From an uncultured Neomegalonema sp. (GTDB lineage Bacteria; Pseudomonadota; Alphaproteobacteria; Rhodobacterales; Rhodobacteraceae), in the NCBI GenBank assembly GCA_937911325.1, contig CALDSD010000081.1:1-64000 (forward strand): a stretch of DNA of 64,000 nucleotides, read 5' to 3'. The position numbers were made by a program, and so were the translations under genes. The notes below the pieces were generated by a model that was not told where the DNA came from, ran no database searches, and saw nothing but the letters and a program-made list of their open reading frames with translations. Positions 1-37,903 of the stretch are shown here, piece after piece. Position 1 is the first letter of the stretch. Each line of letters starts with the position of its first letter.

Positions 1-977
1 CGCCGGAAGAAACGGGATGTGAGATTTATGGCAAGGCCGAATTCCTCAATCCCGGGCAATCGGTCAAGGACCGCGCGGCGCTTTTCATCATCCGCGATGC
101 CATCGCCAAAGGGCAGCTGCGGCCCGGTGGCACCATCGTGGAAGGCACAGCTGGCAACACCGGCATCGGGCTGGCGCTTGTTGGTGCGTCCATGGGTTTC
201 AAAACCGTGATCGTGATCCCGGAGACGCAAAGCCAGGAAAAGAAGGATATGATCCGCCTTGCGGGTGCGGAACTGGTCGAGGTGCCTGCAGTGCCCTATT
301 CCAACCCCAACAACTACGTCCGTTATTCCGGGCGGCTCGCCGAAGAAATGGCGCGGCATAACAACAATGGCGCGATCTGGGCCAACCAGTTCGACAACGT
401 CGCCAACCGTCAGGCCCATATCGACAGCACCGCGCCGGAGATCTGGCGGCAGACCGACGGCAAGATCGACGGGTTTATCTGCGCCTGCGGATCCGGTGGA
501 ACACTGGTCGGCACGGCGACGGGTCTTCGCGCGCGCTCAAGCGACGTCAAGATCGGTTTGGTCGATCCGGACGGCGCCGCTCTTTACCGCTACTTCGCGG
601 AAGGCGAACTCAAATCCGAAGGCTCGTCGATCTCGGAAGGGATCGGTCAGGGGCGGATCACCGCCAATCTGGAAGGCTTCAAGCCGGACTTCGCCTACAA
701 TGTCTCCGATGCTGAGGCGCTGCCGATCGTTTTCGACCTCATGCGCGACGAGGGGCTGATCATGGGGCTGTCCACCGGGATCAATGTCGCCGGCGCGATC
801 CGTCTGGCGAAGGAACTGGGGCCGGGCAAGACCATTGTGACGATCCTCTGCGACTATGGGACCCGCTATGCGTCCAAGCTCTACAATCCGGAGTTTCTCG
901 CAAGCAAAGGCCTGGCGTATCCAGAGTGGTTGCAAGGGGCGCGGGACGAACTCCCGGCTGTTTTCGAAAATGCGTGA
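1..977 (+). CDS. cysK: cysteine synthase A (5' end outside window)
   Basis: PLP-dependent O-acetylserine sulfhydrylase, the last step of cysteine synthesis, which swaps the acetate of O-acetylserine for sulfide. The reading frame is open from base 3, so about 325 residues are visible and only the N-terminus is missing. The PLP lysine lies in GQSVKDRA (bases 66-68), followed by the substrate loop EGTAGNTG and the phosphate-binding glycine loop CGSGGT. Length and motifs fit the CysK/CBS-like fold-type II family. A cystathionine beta-synthase would normally carry extra domains, and none follow here. The next gene begins 88 bases downstream on the same strand. Confidence 0.9.
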   Translation, partial: PEETGCEIYGKAEFLNPGQSVKDRAALFIIRDAIAKGQLRPGGTIVEGTAGNTGIGLALVGASMGFKTVIVIPETQSQEKKDMIRLAGAELVEVPAVPYSNPNNYVRYSGRLAEEMARHNNNGAIWANQFDNVANRQAHIDSTAPEIWRQTDGKIDGFICACGSGGTLVGTATGLRARSSDVKIGLVDPDGAALYRYFAEGELKSEGSSISEGIGQGRITANLEGFKPDFAYNVSDAEALPIVFDLMRDEGLIMGLSTGINVAGAIRLAKELGPGKTIVTILCDYGTRYASKLYNPEFLASKGLAYPEWLQGARDELPAVFENA

Positions 978-1065
978 CGTCGATCTGTATCGGACACGCG
1001 CGAAGCGTTGACGAGATCGGCGGCGTGCTGAAAACCTCGGCGGGCTTACGTCGAGGAGATCAGAC

Positions 1066-22757: not shown

Positions 22758-22951
22758 GGATCTTCCTAGATCTGGCGGCGAATCAGTGCGTGGCGCCGGC
22801 GACGCAATACGGTCTTTCGCACGAAATGACGCGAATCAATATTTGTCCTACCAAAACTTGGTCCTAATAATACCTAGCGAGGTGGGTGGTTCACCTGAGA
22901 TCGGCAATGTCCGCCGCGGCCAGCCGGGCGAGACAGCAAGAGGAGTGCGAG

Positions 22952-23716: not shown

Positions 23717-23843
23717 TCTTTCGGCCGGTTCGGGCCTGCGTTAGCGCCGATTAACAACGGTCGCAAACCTCTCATTAACGTGGTTACGGCACGCTCTGTG
23801 CGTGCACGCCTGTTTGCTAGGCGCAAATGAGAGAGAGCGAACG

Positions 23844-24170
23844 ATGAATGCCCTTCGCAAACGACTGATGTCCGGCCAGGAAGGCCGCGCATTCCCCCGC
23901 GTAAGCGGCCTGCCCGTTTTCGTGACCGTTGACGGCGAAACCTACCGCGCCCGCGATTGGTCGATCGGTGGAATTGGCCTTCGCGACTATCCAGCCGAGG
24001 TAAAGGTTGGCGATCACATCAGTGGAGAGCTGCGTCCATCGGACAATCGCGCCTGCGGTGTGAAGTTCGTCGGCGAAGTCGCCTGGACAGACGGCGACGG
24101 CTCAGTTGGACTGCGATTGCTGTTCGTCCCCGTCGGAGACGCGGCGAACCAGCCTGAGTCGCAGGACTAG
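23844..24170 (+). CDS. PilZ-domain protein
   Basis: 108 residues forming a single PilZ domain, the c-di-GMP receptor fold. Both ligand signatures are present: RAFPR (RxxxR) and DWSIGG (DxSxxG), so binding of c-di-GMP is likely. The start at 23844 follows a GAGAGAG purine stretch; an upstream in-frame ATG at 23802 lacks one. No output domain is attached, so it probably acts through a partner protein. Single gene; a stable hairpin follows. Confidence 0.85.
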   Translation: MNALRKRLMSGQEGRAFPRVSGLPVFVTVDGETYRARDWSIGGIGLRDYPAEVKVGDHISGELRPSDNRACGVKFVGEVAWTDGDGSVGLRLLFVPVGDAANQPESQD

Positions 24171-24189
24171 ACTTCCCCTTTCCTTCACA

Positions 24190-24209
24190 GGGAAGCGTTC
24201 GCGCTTCCC
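24190..24209 (+). other. UUCG-capped hairpin after the PilZ gene
   Basis: GGGAAGCG and CGCTTCCC form a perfect 8-bp stem around TTCG, an exceptionally stable tetraloop. No T-run follows, so it is either a rho-assisted 3' end or an mRNA-stabilising structure. Confidence 0.5.
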
Positions 24210-24268
24210 GAAACGGGTTCAGACGACCTACTGTTCTCTGATGAGACAGATTGAGGTCGTTTTGAGAT

Positions 24269-25222
24269 ATGCCTGATACGCGTCTTCGCACAATTCTCAC
24301 GCAGTTTGGGGCGCCGACCGCCGAAACGCTGCGTTTCAACGCGACGCTCCGCGAGAAATTGCAAGGTCTTCCACCGCCCTGGGAGGTCGATATCGACCTG
24401 ATGCGCGCGCTGCGCGCTGAAGGCAAAGGGATCTTGCCGATCGACGGGCCTTTGCCGGACGCTGAATGGCGTGTTCTTGATGACGGCGCGGGCCGTATCC
24501 GGCTGATCGAGCATTCGGCGCCAAAGGGCGTCTACGTCCATATCCACGGCGGCGGTTGGACGTTCGGAGCGCCTGAGCAGTTCGACGGTCGAAACCTGCG
24601 TTTGTCAAAGGCTGCGGACGTGACGGTCGTCTCTGTTCAATACCGTTTGGCGCCTGAGCATAAGTGGCCGACCTGCGCCGATGATTGTGAAGCAGCGGTT
24701 CTCTGGGCTCTGGAGCACGCTGGGGACTTGCCGGTGTTTATCGGCGGCGAGTCTGCGGGTGGTCATCTTGCGGCGGCGTCGCTGCTGCGCCTTAGGGAAA
24801 AGGGGCTGCTGTCGCGGATCCGCGCAGCGGTCCTGATCTATGGCTGTTTTGATCTTCGTGGCGCGCCGGCGCTTCGAAACTGGGGGGACGAGAACCTGAT
24901 CCTGTCGACGCCGATCGTCGACTGGTTCATCAACAACCTGATCAGCGGCGCCGCGCAGGCCGATGATCCGCTGGTCTCGCCCCTCCTCGCTGACCTTCAC
25001 GACATGCCGCCGGCGCTGTTTTGTGTGGGAACGCTCGACCCGTTGGTTGACGACACGCTGTTCATGGCCGAACGGTGGCGCGCGGCGGGGGCCGAGAGCC
25101 AGTTGGCGGTTTGGCCGGGCGGGGTCCATGCGTTCGACTACTTTGATCGACCTGAATTCGAGCTGCCGATCGCGCTCGAATTGCAAGAAGACGTTGCGAA
25201 CTTCATCCGAGCGCGCCTCTGA
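24269..25222 (+). CDS. alpha/beta hydrolase, hormone-sensitive-lipase type
   Basis: 317 residues. The oxyanion-hole motif HGGGW (about residues 92-96) and nucleophile elbow GESAGG (Ser about 161) place it in the HSL esterase family (alpha/beta hydrolase fold 3). A DPLVDD segment and the GGVHAFDYF histidine complete the triad. No signal peptide, so it is cytoplasmic. Natural ester substrate unknown. Confidence 0.85.
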   Translation: MPDTRLRTILTQFGAPTAETLRFNATLREKLQGLPPPWEVDIDLMRALRAEGKGILPIDGPLPDAEWRVLDDGAGRIRLIEHSAPKGVYVHIHGGGWTFGAPEQFDGRNLRLSKAADVTVVSVQYRLAPEHKWPTCADDCEAAVLWALEHAGDLPVFIGGESAGGHLAAASLLRLREKGLLSRIRAAVLIYGCFDLRGAPALRNWGDENLILSTPIVDWFINNLISGAAQADDPLVSPLLADLHDMPPALFCVGTLDPLVDDTLFMAERWRAAGAESQLAVWPGGVHAFDYFDRPEFELPIALELQEDVANFIRARL

Positions 25223-25394
25223 AGCCTGGCGGGCCTGGCGCGTTGACACAGCCTGTGGTCGCGCACACGCCGCCGCGGAACCCCGATCGCGGATTTCCAC
25301 CCCTTCAAATGGCTGTGAACCGTCGCCACATGAACGTGACCGGAAGATTGAAGCGGTCCGACTTTGATCGGCCCGCAGAAGCGAGGTCGCATAA

Positions 25395-25577
25395 ATGTCC
25401 GCCCCGTGGTTCTACATCCTTGGCGTCTTGGGGATCTTCGTGATGGCGTGGTTGGCGGAAAAGGCCTTCGGCGACGGCGGAACCTACGACGCACGGGACG
25501 AAGACTTTTGGGATTATGAGGACCGCAAGGACGCGCGCCACGATCGTGGGCGGCGTCGGCGTCGCAAACGCGGGTAG
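25395..25577 (+). CDS. small single-helix membrane protein
   Basis: 60 residues. One hydrophobic helix (residues 5-21) is followed by an acidic patch and an Arg/Lys-rich tail (RRRRRKRG). The ATG follows a purine-rich stretch (GAAGCGAGG). Codon use fits the neighbours. No family recognised; it may be a membrane-anchored nucleic-acid- or lipid-contacting peptide. Confidence 0.5.
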   Translation: MSAPWFYILGVLGIFVMAWLAEKAFGDGGTYDARDEDFWDYEDRKDARHDRGRRRRRKRG

Positions 25578-25629
25578 ACGGCGTTAACCTGGCTCGACGC
25601 GAACACGCGCGGGAAAGGATCAAACGGCG

Positions 25630-26472
25630 ATGCGCAACGAACGTCTTCCTTCACTCGACTATGAAGCGGAATACAACAATCGCGCGCGTGTGCCCGAGCA
25701 CATGGCGATCATCGGACAGTGGGGTCGAGACGCCGCGGCGGCGCGCGACGAACTCGGCGGGCCGCGCGACCTTGCATACGGCGAAGCGCCGCGCAACGTG
25801 TTGGACGGGTTCACGCCGACAGGTTCCATCAACGGCGCTGTCGTGATGTTCATCCATGGCGGCTACTGGCAAACGCTCGATAAATCGAGCTTTAGCCACA
25901 TGGCGCGAGGCCCTGTCGCCCATGGCGTTAGCGTTTACATTCCAAGTTACACGCTGTGCCCGGACGTTCGGATTTCCGACATCATAGCGGAAATGCGGAC
26001 AGCCGCGATCGCTGTTCATCGCCTGACCGGGAGTCGGGTCGTGGTCGCAGGGCATTCCGCCGGAGGGCATCTCGCCGCGGCGCTGCTCGCGACCGAATGG
26101 CCTGCGATCTCCGATGATCTGCCTGCCGACTTGGTCACCTCCGCCTATTCCATCTCGGGCGTCTTCGAGCTCGCGCCGCTCGTGCACACAAGCATCAACG
26201 GCGCGCTGGGGCTCGACGCTGCGTCAGCCGCTGCGGTCAGCCCAGCGCTTTGGGCCGCGCCCACAGGCAAGACTTGTGATGCGGTTGTCGGCGGAGCAGA
26301 AAGTTCGGAGTTTCACCGACAGAGCGCGGATCTCGCGCACAGCTGGGGAGCCGCCGGCGTCGCCACCCGGTATGAGAGCGTTCCCTATGCCAACCATTTC
26401 GACGTCATTGCGCCGATGGCGGATCCTGACAGCGCGATGACGGCTCGGCTCGTCCAACTCGCAAAGCTCTAG
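25630..26472 (+). CDS. alpha/beta hydrolase, arylformamidase-like
   Basis: 280 residues. The N-terminal YNNRARVPEH segment and HGGYW oxyanion motif are typical of the kynurenine-formamidase-like branch of alpha/beta hydrolases. The nucleophile elbow is AGHSAGGH, and NHFDV carries the catalytic histidine. No other tryptophan-catabolism gene is in the window, so a role in kynurenine production is not supported by context; a general amidase/esterase is equally possible. Confidence 0.75.
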   Translation: MRNERLPSLDYEAEYNNRARVPEHMAIIGQWGRDAAAARDELGGPRDLAYGEAPRNVLDGFTPTGSINGAVVMFIHGGYWQTLDKSSFSHMARGPVAHGVSVYIPSYTLCPDVRISDIIAEMRTAAIAVHRLTGSRVVVAGHSAGGHLAAALLATEWPAISDDLPADLVTSAYSISGVFELAPLVHTSINGALGLDAASAAAVSPALWAAPTGKTCDAVVGGAESSEFHRQSADLAHSWGAAGVATRYESVPYANHFDVIAPMADPDSAMTARLVQLAKL

Positions 26473-26529
26473 GCGAAATTCGACTAAAAGTTTACCGACC
26501 TTTCATCCCGTGTGCGGGAAAAGTCCCCA

Positions 26530-27978
26530 ATGAAAGGACGAAGCAGGCCCATTTCCGGTATGATGCTCGTCGCGGCGCTCAGTTTCGCCGAGGCTGCGCA
26601 GGCATGGGAGCTGGAGGTCGGCCGTGCGCAGGTCGACAGCACCTTCGACGTCGACCGCGCCACTCGGGTGGCGTTTCAAGATCCATTCGCGGTCCCGCCC
26701 GTCGTTGTGCCGCTCACGACCAGTCAAGGCGCAAGCTCAGCTATTTTGAGGGTCTTCAACATCACCACAACAGGCTTTGACGTGGTCGTTACAGAGCCTC
26801 CCGGCGAGGATGGGCCCCATGTCGCGCAACAATTCGACTACATCGCCATGGAGCCCGGCGTGCATTTGCTGCCGACAGGTGAAACCGTCGCGGCCGGCGT
26901 GCTGACGACGGATCTGTTCGTGGGGTTTGGCGGCTCGGGAGGAACCAGCGGATGGGATATGGCCAGTTTTGGCGGCGCTCTCTCCGGAACTCCGGCGGTG
27001 GTCGCAGCGCTCCAGAGCTTCAATAGCAATCCGAGCGCGGAGCCGTGGAACGAGCCTCTCAGCCCGTTTTTGTCGGTGGCGATCGGGAATGTTTCCAGCA
27101 GCGGGTTCGCTGTTGCAATCGATAGGGTTCAATCCGTCTCGGGAACGTTGGCGAGCGAGACGATCGGTTGGATCGCTTTTCCGGCGGGAGGCGGCGTTTT
27201 CGACGACGACGCCGACGCGACGATTTCGTGGCGCTCGGTTGTCGGGGGAGCCGTTCGCGGGTGGGATAACGGCTGTTTCTCGGTCGCCTTCGGGGCGACC
27301 CTGGCCAATCCGCGCGCCATCGCCTCTACGAACACCCGCAATGGCAGTGACGGCGGCTGGCTGCGCCGTTGCAGCTTGAGCGGATCAAACGTGGGGTTGA
27401 CCGTCGATGAGGACACGGATCTGGACAGCGAGCGCGCCCATACCGCTGAAAGGGTCGGTTTGCTGGCGTTCTCAGGCGATTTTCACGTGAACTTCGGTTT
27501 GGCGGAGGTTTCCGTCAGCAAGTCGGTCGAGATCGAGGAAGACCCGATCAACGGCGCAACGTCGCCGTTGGCCATTCCACAGAGCCGGTTGCGCTATCGG
27601 ATCGACTTTGAAAACGCCGGCGGCGGGCCCGTCGACGCGGATAGCCTTGTGGTCGTCGACGCCTTGCCCGTCGGGGTCGCGTTGAGGGTTGTGGATCTGA
27701 CCGACTTCACCACGGGGACTGGCCCGGTACACTTTGCGGATATTGGGCCTTCAAGCGGTTTGACGTTTACGGTCGGCGCGTTGTCCGACAGCTCTGACGA
27801 CCTTGCGTTTTCGAACGACGGCGGCGCTTCGTTCACGTACACGCCGTCCCCGGATGGTCGCGGCGTGGACCCGGCCGTGACCCATATCCGCTTGACGCCG
27901 AAAGGTGAATTCGCAGCCCCACAGAACGGCGGCGCTGCGCCAGGTTTTCGATTCCTATATGACGTGATCGTTAACTAA
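26530..27978 (+). CDS. secreted protein with H-lectin-like and DUF11-like domains
   Basis: 482 residues from the ATG at 26530, with a signal peptide ending near AQAWE. Residues about 20-310 contain repeated segments such as FNITTTGFDVVV and DYIAMEPG, which look like H-type lectin/carbohydrate-binding modules. The C-terminal 160 residues (VSVSKSVEIEEDP, FENAGGGPVDADSLVVVD) form a DUF11-like Ig domain. First gene of a run of four exported proteins. It probably acts at the cell surface; ligand unknown. An in-frame GTG at 26512 is an alternative start. Confidence 0.7.
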   Translation: MKGRSRPISGMMLVAALSFAEAAQAWELEVGRAQVDSTFDVDRATRVAFQDPFAVPPVVVPLTTSQGASSAILRVFNITTTGFDVVVTEPPGEDGPHVAQQFDYIAMEPGVHLLPTGETVAAGVLTTDLFVGFGGSGGTSGWDMASFGGALSGTPAVVAALQSFNSNPSAEPWNEPLSPFLSVAIGNVSSSGFAVAIDRVQSVSGTLASETIGWIAFPAGGGVFDDDADATISWRSVVGGAVRGWDNGCFSVAFGATLANPRAIASTNTRNGSDGGWLRRCSLSGSNVGLTVDEDTDLDSERAHTAERVGLLAFSGDFHVNFGLAEVSVSKSVEIEEDPINGATSPLAIPQSRLRYRIDFENAGGGPVDADSLVVVDALPVGVALRVVDLTDFTTGTGPVHFADIGPSSGLTFTVGALSDSSDDLAFSNDGGASFTYTPSPDGRGVDPAVTHIRLTPKGEFAAPQNGGAAPGFRFLYDVIVN

Positions 27979-27997
27979 ACTAAGTGAGGACGCAGAC

Positions 27998-28033
27998 ATG
28001 CGGCTCATAAAGAGATTTCGGAGGCGAAGATGA
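27998..28033 (+). other. possible 11-codon leader ORF upstream of DUF11 gene
   Basis: ATG at 27998 with AGGA upstream encodes MRLIKRFRRRR, and its TGA overlaps the ATG of the next gene (ATGA at 28030). A short basic peptide in this position could couple translation. It may equally be chance in a purine-rich leader. Confidence 0.25.
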
Positions 28034-28524
28034 TCTGGACGCAGGCGAAAACGATGTTTGCTGCAGCTCTGTTGGCGATGTCCGCCGGTTTGGCGGCCAG
28101 CGTCGCCTGGGCGCAGGTCGATGTTGAAAGCGTCGTCGAGAAAGAAGTTGTGGTTCAACGCGACGGCGCTTCGGTGGTGGTGAGGGAGCCTGCTGAGCGC
28201 GTCGTACCGGGGGAGGTGGTGGTTTATACCTATCGATTGCGCAACTCAGGCGATCAGCCGGCGAGCAACGTCGCTCCGAGCACGCGGATCCCTGAAGAGA
28301 TGATCTACATCTCCGGCAGCGCCGAGGGGCCGGGCGCGCGGGCGACGCTGTCGGCTGACGAGGGGGCCTCTTTTGCGCCGGAGGGCGAAGTGCTGGTCCA
28401 GGGCGAGGACGGAAGCTTGCGCCCGGCGCGGCCCGAGGAGTTCACGAACATCCGTTGGGTGCTCGAACAGCCGTTGGCGCCGGGTGCTCAGACCAGCGTC
28501 GCGTTCAAGGCGCGGCTGAAGTAG
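28030..28524 (+). CDS. small secreted DUF11-like protein
   Basis: 164 residues with a signal peptide (hydrophobic core about 9-24, VAWA cleavage site). The mature protein is one Ig-like domain: VVPGEVVVYTYRLRNSGDQPA and the strand pattern before IPEEMIYISGS match the DUF11 repeat. CGGAGG lies 6 bases before the ATG. It is short for a stand-alone adhesin and may pair with the larger neighbours. Confidence 0.75.
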   Translation: MIWTQAKTMFAAALLAMSAGLAASVAWAQVDVESVVEKEVVVQRDGASVVVREPAERVVPGEVVVYTYRLRNSGDQPASNVAPSTRIPEEMIYISGSAEGPGARATLSADEGASFAPEGEVLVQGEDGSLRPARPEEFTNIRWVLEQPLAPGAQTSVAFKARLK

Positions 28525-28779
28525 CGGCGGATCCACGAGACTGACGTCAACGGCGCCGGCTGAGGCTTCCTCGGCCGGCATTTTGTCTGTGATAAAGAAA
28601 AAATTCATGATTAATCCAGTGTTATGCAAATATACGCGCTTCCGTAAATGCCAAATACATTAGTATGTTAAATAGTTAAGGGCGAATTTACTACAAATAG
28701 TTCAACTTTATAGAAAAATTTTACTCGATTTGTGTGTATTGGGCTCCGGGCAATGACCCCAATTGTGTCGGAGCAAACT
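28525..28779 (+). promoter_or_regulatory. AT-rich promoter region of the second DUF11 unit
   Basis: 255 bases, strongly A+T-rich between about 28590 and 28740 in an otherwise GC-rich region. A possible sigma-70 promoter is TTTACT (28687-28692), a 16-base spacer and TATAGA (28709-28714), about 65 bases before the next start codon. No rRNA-like or riboswitch structure recognised. Confidence 0.35.
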
Positions 28780-29802
28780 ATGAAATCGATCTTCACCCCA
28801 GTTTCGCGGGTCATGGCGGCAAGCGCTATGCTTCTCGCAGTCCAATCCGGCGTTGCACACGCGACCGCCGGAGACGTCATCAGCAATACCGTCACCGTCA
28901 ACTTCGAGGTGAACAGCCAGGCTCAGACCGCTGTTACCGACTCGGTCGACTTCACCGTCGACGAAATGGTCGACTTCCTTGTCGCGGATGGCCATGGCGG
29001 CGCGATCAATAACCAGCCAGGCCAAACGCAGACCCTGAGCTTCCAGATCGACAATGACGGCAACAAAGACCGTGACTTCAACCTTGCTGTCGTCTTCACC
29101 GGTTCGGGTTTGACGGCGGCGGCCGTTGGAACCGCGGCAGGTTCTCTGGCCGAGGGCGAATACGCAATCAGCGCCAGCAATGTCAGCATTGGCGAAAGCG
29201 GCGATACGACCGTCACTGTCAGCTACCGTGTTCCCAACACAGTCGCGAACGGCACGAGCTACGACTTCCGCGTGACGGCTGTCGCGGCGGACGGGACCAC
29301 GCCTTTGGTCGAAACCGGCACCAGCGACATCGACACGGAAGAGATTGTGTTCGCCGACGGCGACGCCGACCCGTCCGGCTCGGACGATGCGGCTCAGAAC
29401 AACTTCTTCTTTGACACGGTGACGGTGACTGTTCAGTCGGCGACCGTCAGCGCAACCAAGGAAGTCGCGGTTCTGGATGATGGCCGGACCGGTTCCTACG
29501 CTTGTGCGACGATTCCGACAAACGGGACGCCGGCCGCAGGCAGCGGCGACAACCCGATCCCTGGCGCATGCATCGAGTACACGATCACGGTCGACAACAC
29601 CGGTCCAATCGACGCGAGCTCTGTGCAGATCACGGACAACGTGGCTGGCGACGTCGACGTGGTTGCGGTGAGCTATCTGGCCGATGGCGCGACCAACTAT
29701 GTTGCCGGATCGTTCACCGATCAGTCCGTCGACACCAATGTCGGCACGATCGGCGCGACCACCGGGCAGGCGATCCTGCTGATCCGCGGCGTCCTTCAGT
29801 AA
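28780..29802 (+). CDS. secreted DUF11-domain protein
   Basis: 340 residues from the ATG at 28780, preceded by GGAG. Signal peptide ends near AHATAG. The first mature 45 residues (GDVISNTVTVNFEV) resemble the N-terminus of the 1703-residue protein downstream (GETVSNTATIEFTV). A middle Ig-like region contains FQIDNDGNKDRDFNL, and a C-terminal DUF11 domain (EYTITVDNTGPIDASSVQI) follows, with a Cys pair in SYACATIP...PGACIEY. Thr/Asp-rich, very acidic composition. Likely an exported surface or matrix protein; partner unknown. Confidence 0.75.
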   Translation: MKSIFTPVSRVMAASAMLLAVQSGVAHATAGDVISNTVTVNFEVNSQAQTAVTDSVDFTVDEMVDFLVADGHGGAINNQPGQTQTLSFQIDNDGNKDRDFNLAVVFTGSGLTAAAVGTAAGSLAEGEYAISASNVSIGESGDTTVTVSYRVPNTVANGTSYDFRVTAVAADGTTPLVETGTSDIDTEEIVFADGDADPSGSDDAAQNNFFFDTVTVTVQSATVSATKEVAVLDDGRTGSYACATIPTNGTPAAGSGDNPIPGACIEYTITVDNTGPIDASSVQITDNVAGDVDVVAVSYLADGATNYVAGSFTDQSVDTNVGTIGATTGQAILLIRGVLQ

Positions 29803-29812
29803 GGCGCGGTCC

Positions 29813-29834
29813 GACGGGCGCGACGCCGCCCGTC
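29813..29834 (+). other. GC hairpin between DUF11 genes
   Basis: GACGGGCG (29813-29820) pairs perfectly with CGCCCGTC (29827-29834) around a 6-base loop, 11 bases after the stop codon. No U-tract follows, so it may stabilise the upstream mRNA or allow partial read-through into the large gene. Confidence 0.4.
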
Positions 29835-29986
29835 AACACCCCGGGGTCCGGCGTCTCAATCCGCCGGATCCCACGCTGACCCCTCGATAGAACTCTGTCG
29901 ACGTTCTCCACCCAAAAGAGAGAGCGCGGCCCCGCCCGTCGATCACAGGCGCAAATGCGCCGAGAGAGCGAGAGAGGACCGAGCAA

Positions 29987-32900
29987 ATGTCGGTCGGTCG
30001 CCACAGCATCAAAACGACGCTTGAGCGCGCCCTGATGTGGACGCGGCTCGCGATGCTGGGCGCTTTCTCCGTTTTCGCCGTTCCTTCGACGGCTCACGCG
30101 GCAAATCCGGGCGAGACAGTCTCAAACACGGCGACGATCGAATTCACGGTCGGCGGCGCGCCGCAGCCTGCAATCAACAGCACGACTGCGACCTTTATGG
30201 TCGTGCCGGAGCCGACCAGCTCGACGATCGCATTTTTCAGGCATACTCCGTCGGGCTTTGGCGGCGCGTCGCAAACCGTTCGCACGACCCGGTTCCAGGA
30301 CGGCGGCGGCGCGTTCCAGACGGTGACGCCGCCCACCAACATCGCGGGTGATCTGGCGGATGGCGAGGCGGCGGTGTCCTTGTCGTCAGCCAATGTGTTT
30401 CAAGCGGGCGAAACCGCGTTTATCGAAGTAACGGACCTCGGCCGCAACTACGACGATGGCGCGATCGATACGCTCGACATCACCATCACGGACTCCGACA
30501 CGGGCGATCAGGAGGTCTTGCGTCTTCAGGAGACGGGTCCTGCCACGGGCGTTTTCGCCGGCTACATCGTTCTGACCGATCAGGCCTCGCCGACGCAGCT
30601 CGACGGCGTGTTGTCGATCGCCGACGGCTCCACTGTGACGGCCCGTTACACAGACCCGTTCGATTCAAGCGACGTCTCGACCAGCTCGGCGCTGATCGAT
30701 CCGTTTGGCGTGGTGTTTGACAGCTCGACCGGGGCGACGATCGACGGCGTCACGGTCACGCTTCTGACGTCGGCTGGCGCGCCTGCGAGCGTCTTCTCGC
30801 CGGACGGCGTCACAGCCTATCCGAACACGGTCGTCACGGGTGGGAGCGTCACGGACGCAGGCGGAACGACGTTCGCTCTGGCGCCGGGCGAGTACCGTTT
30901 CCCATTGGTGGCGGCGGGCGATTACCGCCTACAGATCACTGCGCCGAACGGCTACGTTTTCCCGAGCACGGTCTCGGATGTGGCGCTGCAGACGCTGCCT
31001 GGCGCGCCTTACGCGCTCAACTCGGGGTCGCGCGGCGGCGTGTTCACGGTGACAGGACCGGGACCGCTGCAGGTCGACATCCCGGTCGACCTTCGCCGCG
31101 ACGTGTTCCTGCAAAAGTCGGCCTCCGAAAGCGTTGTCGGCGAGGGCGACTTCGTCAAATACGAGCTAACGCTCGAAAACGGGACGACGGATCCGGGCGC
31201 GGACATCGTCATCGAAGACCGCTTGCCGCGTGGTTTCCGCTATCAGTCCGGCTCACTGCGACTGGACGGCGCCAAGGTCGCGGATCCGCAGATTTCGGGC
31301 GATGGTCGGCTGCTCAATATCCTGGTGGGAGATCTGGCGTCGGGTCAGACAGCGACAGTCACCTATGTCGCAGAAGCCACCATCCGCGCGCCGAAGGGCG
31401 ATGCGGTGAACGCGGCGACGGCTTATGGTCCCGGCGGCTTTCTTTCGAACCGGGCGACGGCGGTCGTTCAGGTTCGCGAAGAGCTTCTGCGCAGCCGATC
31501 CTACATCATGGGACGTGTGTCGGTGAACGCCTGTGATCTCGACGAACCGTGGCCGCGCGAAATCACGCCCGGGGTCAGCTTGGCCGGGGCCCGGATCTTC
31601 ATGGAGACGGGCGAGTTCGTCGTGACCGACAAGGACGGCGAATACCATTTCCAAGACGTCGAGCCGCGCCCGCATGTGGTTCAGCTCGACCTCGCCAGCT
31701 TGCCGCCGGGCTTCGAGCCGGTGATGTGCGAAGAAAACAACCGCGCCGCCGGCTCGGCGATCAGTCGCTTCGTCGATCCGAAGGGCGGCCAGATCGAGCG
31801 CGTCGACTTCCATGTTCGGTTCAACGGAGCAGCCGCCGAGAAGGCCAAAGCGGACGCGGCGGCAAAGGAAGAAGAGGGCGCCGGCGCGGAGACTGCAAGC
31901 GACCAGGACGCTCAGGAGATCATCGACCCTTCGAGCCTGGATGTCGCTTGGCTGGCGCAGCAGCCGGCAGAGTTCAAACTCGTGTATCCCGTCGACGGCG
32001 CCAGCGTCGCCACGCCGGGCGTCGCCGTCGGCGTTCTTCAGCCGAAGGGATCCTCGGTCGAGTTGCGTCTGAACGGTCGCGAGGTTTCCGGTCTGAACGG
32101 CCGCGAGCCGCTGTCCGCCGCAGGGGCGCCGGCCACGCTGCGTCGCTGGGGCGGCGTCGACATCGAAGCGGGCGCGAACCGCCTTGAGGCGATCCTTCGC
32201 GACAGCGCGGGCGCCGAGATCGAGCGGATCGAGCATACGATCTACTACGTGCAGGAAGCCGCCAAGGCGACGTATCTGCCTGCCCGGTCGACGCGCGTCG
32301 CCGATGGTCAGACGGCGCCGGTCATCGCGGTTCGGTTGACGGATCGCGGTGGGCGCCCTGTGCACAAAGGGCTTCAGGTCAAAGTCAATGTCGAGCCGCC
32401 GTATAAGCTCGCCGGGGCGCAGGATCGCATCGACGCCGATCCGCTGACGGCGACAAATGCAACCGAAGCCACGGTCGCGGTCGGCGCTGACGGGATTTTG
32501 CCGATCTCCCTGGAGCCAACCTTCGCGTCCGGCTTCGTAAAATTGCTGGTGACCATCGGCGATGAACAGGAAGAGGTCCGCGCCTTCCTCAAGCCTGGCA
32601 AGCGCGACTGGATCGTCGTCGGCATCGCCGAGGGAACCGCGGGCTTCAATCGAATCTCCGGCAATATGGAGAACTATGATGCGGCCGGGGGCGAGGACGA
32701 GAGCTTCACGGATGGGCGCGTCGCCTTCTACGCGAAGGGCGCGATCAAGGGTGAATGGTTGCTGACGATCGCAGTCGACACAGCCAAGCGCCGCGGAGAC
32801 GCCGACGAGCGCGTCTTCGAGACAATCGACCCCGATGCGCTCTATCCGGTTTACGGCGACGCCTCTGAACGAGGCCACGACGCTGAAAGCCAATACCCGC

Positions 32901-35098
32901 TGTATCTCAAGCTCGAGCGTGAGCAGTTCTTCGCGCTCTTCGGCGACTATGACACCGGCCTCGATCAAAGCGAGTTGGGGCGCTACGAGCGTCGTTTCTC
33001 CGGCTTGAAAACGGTCTATGAGGGCGAGCAGTTCAGCGTGATCGCCTTTGGCGCGGAGTCCAATCAGGGCTTTGTCAAAGACGAGATCCCGTCCGACGGA
33101 ACCACCGGACCGTACCAGCTGTCACAAAGCCCGATCGTCGTCGGCTCGGAGACGGTGCGCATCGAGACCCGAGACCGCTTCGACGGATCGATCGTCGTCT
33201 CGGAAACGCCGCTCGCGCGGTTCACCGACTACGAGATCGACTACCTGACCGGCGAGCTTTACTTGCGCGCGCCGTTGGCGAGCACGGATGTCAGCTTCAA
33301 CCCGAACTTCCTGGTCATCGACTATTCCGCCGAGCAGGACATCAATCGCGGCTTCACCTATGGCGGCCGGGCCGCCGCACGCTTCCTCGACGGGAAAGTC
33401 GAAATCGGGGCGACGTATGTTCATGAGGACAGCGCCTCTTCGGCGGAGGCGGTCACCAGCGACCTCGCTGTCGCGGACGCGACGATCCAGCTGCGGGAAG
33501 ACACCGAACTGCGCCTGGAGGCCGGCGTCAGTGAGAATGAAACAACCGATGGCGACGCCTCGGCCACGGCGTTTCTGGCGGAGCTCAATCACCAGTCCGA
33601 ACGGCTGCAAGCGAAAGCGCGTTTCCGTCAGGAAGACGCAGGCTACGGCGTCGGCCAGACCTCGGATGAGACCGGCGGGATCCGCTCCTACGGCGTTTCG
33701 GGCAGCTATCGCATCTCCGAGCGCGACAATGAGGAGACCGACGATCTGCTGCCGGACTTCGGTTTGCGGACGGAGTTCAGCGCTGAGCGGGAAGAAGATC
33801 TCGACAGCGACGCCAGCCGGACGCGCGGTGAGATCTTTCTTGTCGCTGAAAACGACGGCGGGGAGACGAAACTGGGCGCGCGCGCCGTTCGCGACGAGCT
33901 CTCTGACGGGTCGGTTGAGCGCACGGATCAGCTGATCGTCGCGACCGAACAGCTCTTCTGGGACAATCGCTTGCGCTTGTTCGCGACGCGCGAACAGACG
34001 ATCAACGGCGGCAAGAGCGAAGCGTTCCCGACACGGACGCTGACCGGGGCCGAGTTTCAGGTGACGGACTGGATGTCGCTGATCGGAATGTACGAGGCGA
34101 GCCAGCAGGACGATGACAGCGGCGACGCCGTTCGGGTGGGAGTTGAGACGCAGCCCTGGGAAGGCGGACGCATCAACGCCTACGGCGACCGGCTAAAGGG
34201 CGAGGGTGGGCAGCAATTGATGGCGACGGTCGGCGTCGGCCAGAGCCTGCGCCTCGATGAGAACTGGTCGGCCTCGGTCGGCGTCGAACGTCAGCAGGTC
34301 CTCACCGCGACGTCGGAGGCGGTGACCGCGGAAGAACGCATCTTTGGCGAGACGCGTCCTATGGAGAACTTCACGCTCGCCAACGCGGGCCTGGGCTACA
34401 CGGACGAGGACTGGAGCTTTTCCACGCGGGTGGAGGCGCGGAACGGCGCGACCGAGGACCGCGTAACCTTCTCGATCGGAGCTTATGGCGACGTCACCGA
34501 CGCCTTTGCGGTTTCCGCCAGCGCACGGATCCTGTTCCGCGACTTTGAAGACACCGGCCTGAGCCAGGAGGTCGATCTCGACCTCGGCTTCGCCTATCGT
34601 CCGGTCGGCGGCGACGTCATTGTGCTCAACAAGCTGACGCTCGGCCACACGGATGACGAAAGTGATCTGGACGACAGCACGCGCAGCTCGAAAATCGTGA
34701 ACAACACGACGCTGAACTGGCGCTTTACGCCGCGTCTGGAAGTCTCCGCCAATGTCGGCGGCAAATACACGATCGCGGAGATTGACGGCGAGGACTACAG
34801 CGGCGCCAGCGGCGTCGTCGGAGCCTCGGCGCGCTATGATCTGAGCGAGATGTGGAGCATCGGCGCACAGGGGGCCGCGCTCTATAGCGAGAACTCCGGC
34901 CAGCTGGAGAACTCCGCCGGGCTGTTTGTCGGGTTCAGCCCGATGAACAACCTTTTGCTTGAGCTCGGGTATAACTTCATGGGCTTTGACGACAGCGATT
35001 TCTCGGACGCCAACTACACCTCTCAGGGCGGCTTTGTCCGCGCGAAGATCAAGTTTGATCAGAACAGCTTGAGCGGCGTGCTCAAGGAGTTCGAGTAA
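29987..35098 (+). CDS. giant outer-membrane protein: DUF11/SdrD-like N-terminus with C-terminal beta-barrel
   Basis: 1703 residues with a good purine ribosome-binding site. A signal peptide ends at AHA (residue 38). Residues about 40-370 are Thr/Ser-rich Ig-like; about 373-495 form a DUF11 domain (VKYELTLENGTTDPGADI). Residues about 503-570 form a carboxypeptidase-regulatory/SdrD-B-like domain (VSLAGARIFMETGEFVV). An Ala/Glu linker lies near 617-655, with further Ig-like strands to about 860. The last 830 residues (from about GKRDWIVVG) alternate short aromatic strands and acidic loops like an outer-membrane barrel. The end is VRAKIKFD plus a 13-residue tail rather than a terminal Phe. Role unknown; possibly a porin-like anchor for the three secreted neighbours. 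Confidence 0.75.
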   Translation: MSVGRHSIKTTLERALMWTRLAMLGAFSVFAVPSTAHAANPGETVSNTATIEFTVGGAPQPAINSTTATFMVVPEPTSSTIAFFRHTPSGFGGASQTVRTTRFQDGGGAFQTVTPPTNIAGDLADGEAAVSLSSANVFQAGETAFIEVTDLGRNYDDGAIDTLDITITDSDTGDQEVLRLQETGPATGVFAGYIVLTDQASPTQLDGVLSIADGSTVTARYTDPFDSSDVSTSSALIDPFGVVFDSSTGATIDGVTVTLLTSAGAPASVFSPDGVTAYPNTVVTGGSVTDAGGTTFALAPGEYRFPLVAAGDYRLQITAPNGYVFPSTVSDVALQTLPGAPYALNSGSRGGVFTVTGPGPLQVDIPVDLRRDVFLQKSASESVVGEGDFVKYELTLENGTTDPGADIVIEDRLPRGFRYQSGSLRLDGAKVADPQISGDGRLLNILVGDLASGQTATVTYVAEATIRAPKGDAVNAATAYGPGGFLSNRATAVVQVREELLRSRSYIMGRVSVNACDLDEPWPREITPGVSLAGARIFMETGEFVVTDKDGEYHFQDVEPRPHVVQLDLASLPPGFEPVMCEENNRAAGSAISRFVDPKGGQIERVDFHVRFNGAAAEKAKADAAAKEEEGAGAETASDQDAQEIIDPSSLDVAWLAQQPAEFKLVYPVDGASVATPGVAVGVLQPKGSSVELRLNGREVSGLNGREPLSAAGAPATLRRWGGVDIEAGANRLEAILRDSAGAEIERIEHTIYYVQEAAKATYLPARSTRVADGQTAPVIAVRLTDRGGRPVHKGLQVKVNVEPPYKLAGAQDRIDADPLTATNATEATVAVGADGILPISLEPTFASGFVKLLVTIGDEQEEVRAFLKPGKRDWIVVGIAEGTAGFNRISGNMENYDAAGGEDESFTDGRVAFYAKGAIKGEWLLTIAVDTAKRRGDADERVFETIDPDALYPVYGDASERGHDAESQYPLYLKLEREQFFALFGDYDTGLDQSELGRYERRFSGLKTVYEGEQFSVIAFGAESNQGFVKDEIPSDGTTGPYQLSQSPIVVGSETVRIETRDRFDGSIVVSETPLARFTDYEIDYLTGELYLRAPLASTDVSFNPNFLVIDYSAEQDINRGFTYGGRAAARFLDGKVEIGATYVHEDSASSAEAVTSDLAVADATIQLREDTELRLEAGVSENETTDGDASATAFLAELNHQSERLQAKARFRQEDAGYGVGQTSDETGGIRSYGVSGSYRISERDNEETDDLLPDFGLRTEFSAEREEDLDSDASRTRGEIFLVAENDGGETKLGARAVRDELSDGSVERTDQLIVATEQLFWDNRLRLFATREQTINGGKSEAFPTRTLTGAEFQVTDWMSLIGMYEASQQDDDSGDAVRVGVETQPWEGGRINAYGDRLKGEGGQQLMATVGVGQSLRLDENWSASVGVERQQVLTATSEAVTAEERIFGETRPMENFTLANAGLGYTDEDWSFSTRVEARNGATEDRVTFSIGAYGDVTDAFAVSASARILFRDFEDTGLSQEVDLDLGFAYRPVGGDVIVLNKLTLGHTDDESDLDDSTRSSKIVNNTTLNWRFTPRLEVSANVGGKYTIAEIDGEDYSGASGVVGASARYDLSEMWSIGAQGAALYSENSGQLENSAGLFVGFSPMNNLLLELGYNFMGFDDSDFSDANYTSQGGFVRAKIKFDQNSLSGVLKEFE

Positions 35099-35206
35099 GA
35101 CCCCGGGCAACGCGTGCTGGGCTTCGGCTCGCAGATCCTGTATCGTCCGCATCAACGACGGCGGAGACTGTCGCGACATTGAGCACAGCATGAGCAGGAT
35201 CAGGAC

Positions 35207-36469
35207 ATGACGGACCTGTCCCCGGACGCGTTTCATCCGCGCGGAGCGGCGGGTGTCGGCCGCGTCGGCCGCGTCGGCCAGCGCGCCTATGCGGGCGGCG
35301 GCGCTTTGCAAGACGAACCGCCGTCAGAAGTCAGTCAATGGAGCCAGTGGGCGAGATCCGTCGACCATGTGTCGATCCTGATTTGCGTGGCTTTGTTCTG
35401 CATCGGCGTTGTTCTCGCATTCGCGGCGTCTCCGGCGCTTGCGGAAAGCAACCAGACATCGCCGTTCTATTACGCATGGCGGCATCTGATCTTCGGCGCG
35501 CCAGCGTTCGTGCTGCTGTTCACGATCTCTTTCTTCAGCCCGTCGGCCGTGCGGCGCTTGGCGGTTTTCGCGACCTTCGCAGGCCTGGTGGCGTTGGCGC
35601 TGCTGCCGCTTTATGGCACCGATTTCGATCAGGGCGGGACGCGTTGGTATGCGCTGCCTGGCTTGGGGTCCCTGCAGCCCTCGGAGTTTCTCAAACCCGC
35701 TCTCATCGTCACCTGCGCATGGCTGCTGTCGGCTTCGAGCGGTGTGGATCGAGGTTCCAACGCGCGCGATCAGGGCCTCGGACCCGCGGGCGCCGGCGCG
35801 TCTCTGGCGCTTCTCGCGACGGCGGCGGCGCTCTTGGTGATACAGCCCGACTATGGTCAGACGGCCCTCATCCTTGTGGTGTGGGCGGCCATGTACTTTG
35901 TCTCTGGCGCGTCTCTTGTCACTCTCGCAGCGCTCGCCCTATGCGCGTTCGTCGGCGCGATCATCGCCTTTCAAGTCGAGCCGCATATCGCCTATCGCGT
36001 CACCGCCTTCTGGGAAGAGGGCGGCGCGCCGCCGCAACAGCTGCTGGATGCGCGGCAAGCGATGATCAACGGCGGCTGGTTTGGCGTCGGCCCCGGGGAC
36101 GGCGTGAACAAGCTCACCTTGGCCGAAGCCAATTCAGACTTCATCTTCGCTGTGGCGATCGAGGAGTATGGATTTGCGCTCGGCGTGCTGCTGGTGGTGC
36201 TCTTCTCGTTCATCACCCTCAACGCGCTCTGGCGGTTGCGCCGGGTCGAGGCCGCGTTTCCGCGTTTGGCGGGTATCGGGTTGGCGTTGCTCTTCGGCCT
36301 TCAGGCCTTCGTCAATATGGCGGTCACCGTGCAGCTTCTTCCGGCGAAAGGGATGACGCTTCCGTTCATCTCCTATGGCGGGTCGTCGCTCATCGGGATC
36401 GGATTGACGATGGGCATGCTTCTGGCTCTCACGCGCCGACGATTGCTGGACGAGACGCGCCGCTTCTAA
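35207..36469 (+). CDS. ftsW: FtsW, lipid II polymerase of the divisome
   Basis: 420 residues of the SEDS family, a septal peptidoglycan glycosyltransferase working with FtsI. About ten membrane helices begin after a 45-residue cytoplasmic tail containing a small GVGRVGRVG repeat. Family motifs are GTRWYALPGLGSLQPSEFLKP (loop 4 region), the ARQAMINGGWFGVGPG segment, SDFIFAVAIEEYG and the PFISYGGSSL signature near the C-terminus. AGGATCAGGAC precedes the ATG. It heads the wall/division block; the usual upstream murD is absent. Confidence 0.95.
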   Translation: MTDLSPDAFHPRGAAGVGRVGRVGQRAYAGGGALQDEPPSEVSQWSQWARSVDHVSILICVALFCIGVVLAFAASPALAESNQTSPFYYAWRHLIFGAPAFVLLFTISFFSPSAVRRLAVFATFAGLVALALLPLYGTDFDQGGTRWYALPGLGSLQPSEFLKPALIVTCAWLLSASSGVDRGSNARDQGLGPAGAGASLALLATAAALLVIQPDYGQTALILVVWAAMYFVSGASLVTLAALALCAFVGAIIAFQVEPHIAYRVTAFWEEGGAPPQQLLDARQAMINGGWFGVGPGDGVNKLTLAEANSDFIFAVAIEEYGFALGVLLVVLFSFITLNALWRLRRVEAAFPRLAGIGLALLFGLQAFVNMAVTVQLLPAKGMTLPFISYGGSSLIGIGLTMGMLLALTRRRLLDETRRF

Positions 36470-36682
36470 CGCGCCTGCAGCGCGGCAAACGCCGCCTTCG
36501 CATCGGCCTATGATGGAACGACCGCGCGCGGGCGGTTCGTCAATTGAACAACGAAGTCGAGGTTTTCGCCCATCTTTCGCCCCCGTCGCGCTTGATCCGT
36601 GAGGAAATCCGAGGTGAAAGAGAGCGTTAACCCTCGTGAGCGGGCCACGCCTCGGCCTGCTTGGGAAGGATGAGGAGCGAAG

Positions 36683-37807
36683 ATGTACGAGAGCGGACGC
36701 GGTCGGTTTCTAGTGATCGCCGCCGGTGGGACCGGAGGGCACATGTTTCCTGCGCAAGCCCTGTCGCAGGAGATGCTCAGGCGAGGGTGGCGGGTCTCCT
36801 TGTCGACCGACGACCGCGGGTTGCGCTATGCGGGCGGCTTCCCGCCGGAAGTCGAGCGCCGCGAAGTGCAGTCTGCGACTTTCGCACGCGGCGGGATCGC
36901 CGAGAAAATGCGGGCGCCTTTCACGATCCTGTCCGGCGCCAACGAAGCCATCGCGTGGTTCAAGAAGGAGAAGCCGGATTTGGTCGCCGGGTTCGGCGGC
37001 TATCCGTCGTTGCCGGCGCTGGGCGCTGCGTGGCGGCTCGGCCTCCCGCGAATGATCCAGGAGCAGAACAGCGTACTGGGCCGTGTGAACGCGCTGTTCG
37101 CCAAGCGGGTGCATGCGGTCGCCTGCGGCGTCGAGCACATCTCCAACGCGCCGCTGGGAGCGAACCTGCACTTCATCGGCAATCCGATCCGGGACGCGGG
37201 CCGGGCGTTGTCGGGCTCCCCTTACCATCAGATCGACGAGAACGGGCCGATCCGGTTGCTGGTCTTCGGCGGCAGTCAGGGCGCCCGGATCTTTGACGAG
37301 CGCGTGCCCGCTGCGGTAGCGGCGTTGCCGGCTGAAATCCGCGATCGGCTGCTGCTGACCCAACAGGTTCGCGAGGCGGATCAGAACGAAGTTCGCGAAG
37401 GGTATCGCCGCGCTGGCGTTCTGGCCGAGCTCGCGCCGTTTTTCGATGATATGCCGCAGCGGATCGCCGGGGCGCATCTGGTCGTCTGTCGAGCCGGCGC
37501 CTCGACCATCGCCGAACTGACGGCCATCGGCCGGCCCGGCGTTCTCGCGCCGTATCCGGCCGCGATGAACGATCACCAGACGCATAACGCACACGGCCTT
37601 GTCGACGCCGGGGCGGCCGTGATGCTGCCAGACGCCGAGATGTCGGTAGAGCGGCTGACGGCCCAACTGACCGAGTTGCTGAACGACCCGGCCCGGCTGA
37701 CCGCGATGGCGACAGCGGCGCGAGGATTGGGCGCTCCGAACGCGGCAAGCGATCTGGCGGATCTGGCCGAGCGGGTCGCAAACGGCGAGGAAGTCGCCGC
37801 CGCTTAG
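36683..37807 (+). CDS. murG: MurG, lipid II synthase
   Basis: GT28 glycosyltransferase of 374 residues that adds GlcNAc to lipid I on the inner face of the membrane. The N-terminal loop AAGGTGGHMFPA, the second G-loop VFGGSQGARIF, and the UDP-binding VCRAGASTIAELT with YPAAMNDHQ are all present. GAGGAG lies upstream. There is a 213-base gap from ftsW and 96 bases to murC. Confidence 0.95.
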   Translation: MYESGRGRFLVIAAGGTGGHMFPAQALSQEMLRRGWRVSLSTDDRGLRYAGGFPPEVERREVQSATFARGGIAEKMRAPFTILSGANEAIAWFKKEKPDLVAGFGGYPSLPALGAAWRLGLPRMIQEQNSVLGRVNALFAKRVHAVACGVEHISNAPLGANLHFIGNPIRDAGRALSGSPYHQIDENGPIRLLVFGGSQGARIFDERVPAAVAALPAEIRDRLLLTQQVREADQNEVREGYRRAGVLAELAPFFDDMPQRIAGAHLVVCRAGASTIAELTAIGRPGVLAPYPAAMNDHQTHNAHGLVDAGAAVMLPDAEMSVERLTAQLTELLNDPARLTAMATAARGLGAPNAASDLADLAERVANGEEVAAA

Positions 37808-37903
37808 AGTTGGACTGAAGGGGGCGCTCGACGCTGGCGATTGGCTGTTGGGCGCCCTATGGGTGGCGCTCTGTCATCCGCTGAGCCGAAGGACCAAGCC
37901 GTC

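Follow-up and report, generated by a model that had tools for sequence, protein, structure and literature searches.

A candidate divided CLIPPER domain and a giant predicted outer-membrane barrel in a conserved set of genes for apparently secreted proteins

What could be built by a short run of genes for exported Ig-like and lectin-like proteins, the last of which ends in a giant barrel? The question is raised by positions 26530-35098 of the window, that is, of the 64,000-nucleotide stretch analysed here (positions 1 to 64,000 of contig CALDSD010000081.1, assembly GCA_937911325.1, from an uncultured Neomegalonema sp.). The four open reading frames (ORFs) that a reading made from the letters alone had placed there (the sequence-only reading) are all present and co-directional in the ORF map of the window; we call them g1 to g4. 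Judged from sequence, we put the probability at roughly 0.55 that their products form a fibre joined head to tail, running from a tip (g1) through g3 to a base (g4), and that the joints are made by a CLIPPER domain split between neighbouring subunits. CLIPPER is the new name of the domain DUF11, described as CnaA-like, with an intramolecular isopeptide bond between Lys and Asn, a presumed catalytic Asp and the crystal structure 9IFR (PMC12617251). The genes and the parts on which the proposal rests are the following.

26530-27978, plus strand: g1, 482 amino acids (aa); signal peptide, H-type lectin stretches and a truncated C-terminal DUF11/CLIPPER domain; predicted tip or cargo protein
27502-27975, plus strand: truncated CLIPPER domain at the C-terminus of g1, with Lys in SVSKSVEIEE (27511-27540) and Asp in LVVVDALPV (27646-27672)
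28030-28524, plus strand: g2, 164 aa; signal peptide and one CLIPPER-type domain of a family without the Lys and Asp; possible placeholder or cap
28780-29802, plus strand: g3, 340 aa from the ATG at 28780; signal peptide, N-terminal hairpin, middle part and truncated C-terminal CLIPPER domain
28864-28968, plus strand: g3 hairpin TAGDVISNTVTV..., at the presumed mature N-terminus
29425-29799, plus strand: truncated CLIPPER domain at the C-terminus of g3, with Lys in SATKEVAV (29449-29472) and Asp in VQITDNVAG (29623-29649)
30035-35098, plus strand: g4, 1687 aa; signal peptide, hairpin, CarboxypepD/SdrD-like domain, complete CLIPPER domain, weak second CarboxypepD-like stretch, charged linker, Ig-like domains and giant barrel with a plug-like insert
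30104-30205, plus strand: g4 hairpin NPGETVSNTATIEFTV..., putative donated strands with the Asn
31097-31489, plus strand: complete internal DUF11/CLIPPER domain of g4 (PF01345, 42.8 bits)

Relatives were collected by scanning named genomes with an alignment of g4, and the best 80 of 130 were kept. As a reference we used the complete internal DUF11 domain of g4, a profile of 139 positions with Lys at 13, Asp at 47 and Asn at 110; these residues (Lys362, Asp396 and Asn460) are invariant in 11 aligned long homologues, and the full triad lies inside one domain. The C-terminal domains of g2, of g3 and of the tip proteins (a set of 22 that is defined below) all stop before the Asn-bearing strands in profile alignments. 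The joint g2 and g3 C-terminal profile covers reference positions 17-103 (98.3% by hhalign), the g3 profile alone positions 16-103 (97.6%), and the tip profile positions 4-102 (98.4%). The tip profile sets its Lys on Lys362 and its Asp on Asp396, as does a global alignment of the g3 profile. The Lys column is kept in 72 of 73 g3 proteins and in all 22 tips, and the counts for the Asp column are the same (72/73 and 22/22). Counted by local alignment, Asp is present in 72/73 g3 proteins, 21/21 aligned tips and 5/66 g2 proteins, and the Asn in 44 of the 48 complete g4-internal domains and in none of the g3, tip or g2 C-terminal domains. The g2 family has no conserved Lys; column counts were used because a regular expression for Lys followed by Asp proved too loose, matching 25 of the 66 g2 proteins. 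In the window itself the triad is incomplete in the C-terminal domains of g1 and g3, both proteins ending ahead of the Asn position.

The missing part may be carried by the partner proteins. Directly after the signal peptide, g3 and g4 have a hairpin GxxIxNxAxxxY...SNxVxxxV, the window cores being GDVISNTVTV (g3) and GETVSNTATI (g4). A profile of this hairpin matches 77/80 g4 and 71/72 g3 proteins, none of 66 g2 proteins, none of 22 tips, and 18 of 1250 other ORFs; an earlier motif search gave 41/85 for g4, 58/68 for g3, 1/66 for g2, 47/1239 for other ORFs and 4/28 for tip-like proteins (three of the four are g3-type genes and the fourth is from locus L127). The g3 and g4 hairpin profiles match each other at 98.6%. 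Of the 148 hairpins, 137 have the Asn at the motif position, namely 107 of the 107 selected by the motif and 30 of the 41 others. The profile of motif-selected hairpins falls on reference positions 110-133, the very part absent from the C-terminal domains, and none of 300 column shuffles scored as high, a test biased by the selection of the N-termini. An unselected profile restricted to well-filled columns is placed best at positions 110-134, with one of 300 shuffles as good, a weaker result. Finally, when the C-terminus of g3 was joined in silico to a hairpin, the domain score rose by a mean of 3.9 bits (g4 hairpin) or 6.4 bits (g3 hairpin) over 61 loci; shuffled hairpins added 0.8-1.4 bits and random ORFs 0.2-0.5 bits. 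We infer that the hairpin could be the missing strands of the C-terminal domains, the homology being weak by itself.

Since g3 has both halves, and since their joining gives the largest gain (6.4 bits), its hairpin might instead complete its own C-terminal domain, giving a closed monomer and no assembly. This is improbable, since the other two classes have one half each: the tips end in the C-terminal half and lack the hairpin (0/22), and g4 has the hairpin alone, as expected of the two ends of a chain. The division of halves among tips, g3 and g4 thus follows the logic of the proposed fibre. Likewise, where Lys and Asp are kept without the Asn and the Asn is found in the hairpin of a partner, an intermolecular isopeptide bond is the natural expectation.

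The proposed fibre would work as follows. The N-terminal hairpin of one protein would complete the C-terminal domain of the next, and a spontaneous Lys-Asn isopeptide bond would lock each joint. Addition of g3 to itself, in one or more copies, could produce a shaft. With its complete CLIPPER domain, Ig domains and predicted plugged barrel, g4 would be the base, keeping the fibre in place and probably providing the exit for the folded chain; assembly would take place at the periplasmic face and the product would be led outward through the barrel. The g2 protein, in which both the reactive residues and the hairpin are missing, suits a non-covalent role: it may occupy hairpins as a chaperone-like placeholder or a cap.

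The domain of g2 is recognised by TIGR01451 (29.4 bits, cut-off 24), and its PF01345 score of 21.3 bits is under the cut-off of 24.6. The AlphaFold2 model has a predicted local distance difference test score (pLDDT) of 93.5, and structural comparison with the CLIPPER structure 9ifr gives Z 8.6 and a root-mean-square deviation (rmsd) of 1.9 A over 88 residues, tied best with other Ig-like folds among the matches listed. Comparison of g2 by sequence with solved structures gave nothing convincing.

Several observations weigh against the split-domain fibre. Eleven of the 148 hairpins have no Asn, all of them among the 41 outside the motif selection; the unselected profile, taken over all columns, is placed best elsewhere; and direct comparison of hairpin and reference by hhalign gives only 0.8% (g3) and 2.9% (g4). 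Residues 28-73 of g2 also raise the joined score, by 3.0 bits, probably because they contain the start of a DUF11 domain. Local alignment found the Lys in only 5/73 g3 proteins and 6/21 tips, low counts that arise since the local alignments began after the Lys column. The zero counts for the Asn are weak for the tips and g2, as most of the local alignments ended near position 59, and the stop of the protein itself is thus the stronger evidence. The window g3 is short, and its Asp lacks the proline that commonly comes next; g1 stands upstream in the window and not downstream. If the N-terminal half of g4 is periplasmic, as its relatives indicate (see below), a joint at the surface requires threading through the barrel. 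We know of no energy source or chaperone for such a fibre. Lastly, the lone g2 model is well folded, so that a domain without the strands in question may be stable; Foldseek found no match for it at E <= 0.001; and its range on 9ifr (20..109 of a 123-residue chain), if taken in order, would extend beyond the Asn strand and so argue against a missing strand in g2, though the range does not show which strands pair.

The well-folded g2 model and its range on 9ifr, together with the weak direct match of the hairpin profile, are what could be expected if the truncated domains simply ended where their subfamily naturally ends, the Lys and Asp being remnants and the N-terminal motif an unrelated beta-hairpin. 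However, the two residues hardly vary in g3 and the tips and are lost in g2, and the shuffle and joining controls are not explained either, which leaves this reading little chance.

The gene set as such is conserved. It was counted at those 68 of the 80 loci where the sequence extends 3.8 kb or more ahead of the barrel ORF, g3 being sought to 8 kb and g2 to 10 kb upstream with iterated profiles. At 60 of these loci g4 is preceded, on its own strand, by both a g2-like and a g3-like gene, at seven by a g3-like gene alone and at one by neither. All loci were collected via g4, and they include several from related strains or metagenome-assembled genomes (MAGs; e.g. L092, L096), and thus the counts are not independent events. 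The co-occurrence of four genes implied by the sequence-only reading thereby holds for g2, g3 and g4; g1 is an exchangeable member. The g2-like proteins are mostly of 160-220 aa and the g3-like proteins mostly of 870-1070 aa, and the window g3, which we predict to be a connector or shaft subunit, is a short form of its family. The window represents a compact subtype. Locus L144 is alike (g2 173, g3 371 and g4 1733 aa), and g3 is short at L145 and L146 as well. The latter two loci are compact copies in one genome, and at both of them g2 is preceded by an additional g3-like gene (329 and 333 aa).

By title, g4 relatives come from Alpha-, Beta-, Gamma- and Deltaproteobacteria, Nitrospirae, Aquificota, Verrucomicrobia, Lentisphaerae, Acidobacteria, Planctomycetes (Brocadiia) and Gracilimonas, and the core set spans about nine phyla. 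With relatives in many phyla, the block is, on the evidence of sequence, not a chance arrangement. Within the order, g4 is matched in 38 of 196 genomes, and at the class level in 15 of 385, four of them only weakly (the genome of the window is included in both counts). Ten of the order-level relatives are long (open frames of 1914-1988 aa); others are shorter barrels of about 1150-1300 aa, which often lie beside giant DUF11 ORFs. A search of open-licence papers, preprints not included, found no published description of the gene set.

Several variants were observed among the relatives. In a two-gene form (L046-L055, e.g. L048 and L053; also L267), a giant DUF11 ORF, in several cases of more than 2000 aa, is followed by a g4-like barrel of about 1150-1300 aa; on a plasmid of Sinorhizobium meliloti this form consists of a DUF11 protein (27110-37198 in the plasmid record) and a hypothetical protein (37195-40980). 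On a plasmid of Acinetobacter haemolyticus (L265), a g4 relative of 2008 aa is accompanied by several small DUF11, NEW3 and hypothetical genes, by a DUF11 protein of 978 aa and by a separate gene of the OmpA family. The annotations given to plasmid relatives, among them short barrels, are DUF11 or NEW3 domain-containing, OmpA family, TonB-dependent receptor or hypothetical protein. Five Rhodobacterales operons (L038, L039, L040, L044, L045) adjoin a small gene that resembles a response regulator, with LIADDHD close to the start, and in some cases a kinase-like ORF as well, both recognised by eye. Elsewhere in the genome of the window there is an ORF of 4411 aa in which DUF11 is matched strongly twice (G000:C68, L152:4113-17348, minus strand).

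The exchangeable members are the candidate tips. At 20 of the 80 named loci there is an additional large protein (556-2637 aa) that ends in the same C-terminal domain, with only 0-5 residues beyond it. Six such proteins and one L121 neighbour were scanned with Pfam, giving DUF11 or DUF7933 repeats, SdrD_B, beta-helix and GEVED domains. The hand-picked tip set (n = 22) consists of the proteins from these 20 loci, a 389-aa protein of L145 and g1; an overlapping ORF (L062, 566 aa), genes or fragments of the g3 type, ORFs truncated at contig ends (L072, L125, L131) and L147, a duplicate of L104, were left out. The L145 protein, encoded downstream of g4, is a relative of g1 (phmmer, 2.4e-13) aligned over its C-terminal part. 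The exchangeable members look like adhesive tips, and in the window this place would be filled by the lectin g1. Indeed, PF09458, the H-type lectin family, is found in g1 in two stretches (37.4 bits, cut-off 24). This is its main recognisable domain, and the earlier description of g1 as DUF11-like was incomplete: g1 failed the search with the C-terminal-domain profile at 1e-3, and its membership rests on an hhalign match of its C-terminus to that profile (95.1%).

The other earlier statements about the proteins stand in part. The three proteins before g4 had all been taken as DUF11-like; g3 passes (PF01345 26.8 bits, cut-off 24.6; CARDB 27.9 bits; g3-family profile E 2e-14), g2 remains below the PF01345 cut-off, and g1 is linked only by profile-profile comparison. 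Their sizes do not rise along the block, being 482, 164, 340 and 1687 aa for g1 to g4. The length of 1703 aa given for g4 is reached with an upstream ATG at 29987, and the ATG at 30035 gives 1687 aa; g1 starts with the ATG at 26530, a GTG at 26512 being also possible. Export of all four proteins is suggested by signal-peptide-like stretches at their N-termini, judged by eye. The SdrD-like domain attributed to g4 scores under its own cut-off (SdrD_B, 26.2 against 29.7 bits), and CarboxypepD_reg passes (35.2 against 32.3 bits).

The second half of the proposal concerns the barrel, and here three further features of g4 are needed.

31976-32596, plus strand: Ig-like domains before the barrel, with strands at model residues 10-216
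32612-35059, plus strand: predicted outer-membrane beta-barrel of about 40 strands
33098-33298, plus strand: plug-like beta insert (GTTGPYQL...GSETVRIETRDR...DYEIDYLTGELYL) between barrel strands, at model residues 402-439 by DSSP

Residues 640-1688 of g4 were modelled by AlphaFold2 with an alignment of 70 sequences (69 relatives), resulting in a mean pLDDT of 83.1 and a predicted template modelling score of 0.75. The C-terminal region is a predicted barrel rather than a set of soluble repeats, in agreement with the sequence-only reading. DSSP gives about 40 long strands at model residues 222-1037 (g4 residues 861-1676), the number being approximate since neighbours such as 362-371 and 373-381 could be one strand. 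Several porins align to model residues of about 219..1036, spanning the barrel from its first strand region to its last, which suggests that it is closed. By this model the g4 barrel, usher- or SprA-sized, seems to be among the largest membrane barrels yet predicted. A barrel of 40 strands would be some 7-8 nm wide between backbones, enough for folded Ig domains. The plug-like insert falls in the most conserved stretch of g4. The Ig-like region aligns with the glycoside hydrolase 4ypj over 221 columns (E 2e-6); the N-terminal half matches solved structures of the SdrD/CarboxypepD type by sequence, with 9ifr only at E 0.1.

The family of the barrel is less clear. Compared by sequence with solved structures, the barrel region gave two weak matches. 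The best Foldseek match of the model is Deinococcus SlpA (8ae1, E 2.7e-11). By VIA the top structural match is the FimD usher 9fy9 (Z 16.9, rmsd 10.9 A, 362 residues), PapC is also among the top, and SprA 8gl8 ranks lower (Z 12.4, 6.4 A, 385 residues). No structural match covers most of the model well, and thus no family membership follows. Membership of the ushers was also tried by profile and rejected: the whole barrel matches TonB receptors at 96.0%, ushers at 93.8%, SprA at 88.8% and LptD at 27.9%, and, as TonB receptors score as high, the whole-barrel profile mainly senses a barrel. Only the plug region separates the families, its profile matching SprA at 42.5%, ushers at 13.3%, TonB receptors at 0.3% and LptD at 0.2%. 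No autotransporter barrel family was found in g4 by Pfam at E <= 1, so that by this test it is not a type 5 secretion system, and no second barrel of the g4 family was found in the genome of the window at E <= 10.

The similarity to SprA leads to a different interpretation, a type 9-like secretion system outside Bacteroidota. Here the C-terminal DUF11 domain would be a sorting signal for a SprA-like barrel, and each protein would be released or anchored singly, with no polymer formed. A common C-terminal domain behind unrelated N-terminal parts, a barrel of SprA size with 8gl8 aligned over 385 residues, and a plug region closest to SprA of the four families are all in its favour. However, it leaves the g3/g4 hairpin and the Lys and Asp kept in a domain without Asn unexplained, the whole-barrel score for SprA is not above that for TonB receptors, and the SprA family TIGR04189 has no match in the genome of the window. 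We consider it unlikely. Type 9 membership as such was rejected for want of a TIGR04189 match in this genome, no search for PorV or GldL/GldM-type motor genes having been made. The 14 control genomes were silent for TIGR04189 too, and the same family was found in Gracilimonas and in 47 of the 61 genomes of its phylum sample. In many genomes of that sample (e.g. L185) there is a further protein of about 1050-1270 aa whose match to the SprA profile is confined to positions of about 604-690; the g4 barrel profile did not detect such a protein in L185, the only one tried (an 887-aa open stretch).

The orientation of the barrel may be deduced from its relatives. In a deltaproteobacterial relative (L133), SPOR precedes the barrel (4.5e-15) and OmpA follows it (4.3e-24); in Thermovibrio (L121) g4 is split, and the gene for the DUF11 N-terminal half ends in OmpA (1.2e-11). 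Among 49 N-terminal stretches scanned, SPOR was found in six and OmpA in seven, and most have neither. These are peptidoglycan-binding domains, and thus, if the relatives are a guide, the ends of the barrel would be periplasmic. At L084, L121, L127, L131 and L133 (Aquificota and one deltaproteobacterial MAG) g4 consists of two adjacent genes, a DUF11/SdrD half (with the OmpA end in L121) and a barrel half (with SPOR in L133); the other barrel halves appear SPOR-like by eye, though Pfam finds no SPOR in the L121 barrel protein.

The same SPOR and OmpA domains, together with the SlpA match, would also fit g4 as a passive connector tied to peptidoglycan, in the manner of SlpA, with g1, g2 and g3 as ordinary adhesin or envelope proteins and no covalent chain. 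As most of the 49 stretches have neither domain, g4 has no SLH domain at E <= 1, and the division of the CLIPPER domain stays unexplained, this is not a probable reading. In more general terms, the barrel may serve as the anchor or exporter of its neighbours, as had been suggested; both roles would fit.

The genomic setting can be described briefly. Upstream of the block (22886-26472) are genes for a GNAT acyltransferase (PF13444), a PilZ-domain protein and two alpha/beta hydrolases. The block lies directly upstream of ftsW- and murG-type genes (junction at 35098-35207), and murD is on another contig (G000:C97:96102-97517); thus the division and cell-wall cluster is interrupted here or at a contig end. 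A GC-rich stem-loop of 11 pairs was observed at 28555-28579, between g2 and g3. Terminator-like sites are not enriched (nine found, 8.5 in shuffles), and a sigma-70 promoter scan found none. No PHROGs match was found for g1, g3 and g4 at E <= 0.001, g2 not being in that scan; these three proteins thus give no sign of phage origin.

Taken at its widest, the proposal is a new class of fibre in about nine phyla, a sortase-free polymer held by intermolecular isopeptide bonds, the folded chain of which leaves through a plugged barrel of about 40 strands. In it g3 would be the repeating shaft unit, and lectins, GEVED domains, beta-helices and DUF11 stalks the exchangeable tips. We hold this wider claim tentatively, at somewhat less than even chances. 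If true, the chain would be assembled by a route distinct from those of the chaperone-usher, sortase, type IV and curli kinds, and genes now annotated as DUF11/NEW3, OmpA family, TonB-dependent receptor or hypothetical would acquire testable roles.

How does the block compare with known systems? The barrel of the type 9 translocon, SprA, has 36 strands (PMC10994853), a number that g4 could surpass. Both are giant single-chain barrels (that of g4 by prediction), they share the motif region GSxxV...DYxIDYxxGxI, and the DUF11/CLIPPER domain shared by the C-termini of the cargo-like proteins may be a counterpart of the conserved C-terminal cargo domain of that system. On the other hand, the g4 set is mostly outside Bacteroidota and has the divided-domain pattern.

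Deinococcus SlpA has been described as an envelope connector (PMC9388160). It resembles g4, of which it is the best Foldseek match, in being a large outer-membrane barrel. However, SlpA carries an SLH domain and g4 does not (Pfam, E <= 1); g4 is found in an operon of secreted subunits, and some of its relatives have SPOR or OmpA domains.

The CLIPPER fibrillar adhesin B9T28_05395 of Acinetobacter silvestris is a single long polypeptide whose intramolecular bond is intact (PMC12617251). The domain family is the same, and some relatives of the block have adhesive parts of the GEVED type and anchors of the OmpA type, but here the domain is apparently divided between separate proteins.

In chaperone-usher pili, the N-terminal strand of a subunit completes the Ig-like domain of the next, the tip has no donor strand, and the base is a plugged barrel of 24 strands. 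The predicted donated strand, the donor-less tip and the predicted large barrel base with its plug-like insert would be analogous here, and FimD is the top structural match. The differences are the predicted barrel of about 40 strands and subunits made of CLIPPER domains with isopeptide residues. Neither the usher family PF00577 nor the PapD-type chaperone family PF00345 was found in the genome of the window, both searches being positive in the E. coli control, and PF00577 was not found in g4 at E <= 1. Thus the candidate fibre, if real, would work like a covalent chaperone-usher fibre minus the chaperone.

Finally, SpyTag/SpyCatcher and isopeptag are engineered split pairs, in which a domain lacking a strand reacts with a partner supplied in trans. 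By analogy the principle would be the same, the engineered pairs being laboratory products and the pair proposed here a natural one serving assembly. If the proposal is correct, natural split isopeptide pairs exist, and these genomes are a source of new tag and catcher pairs.

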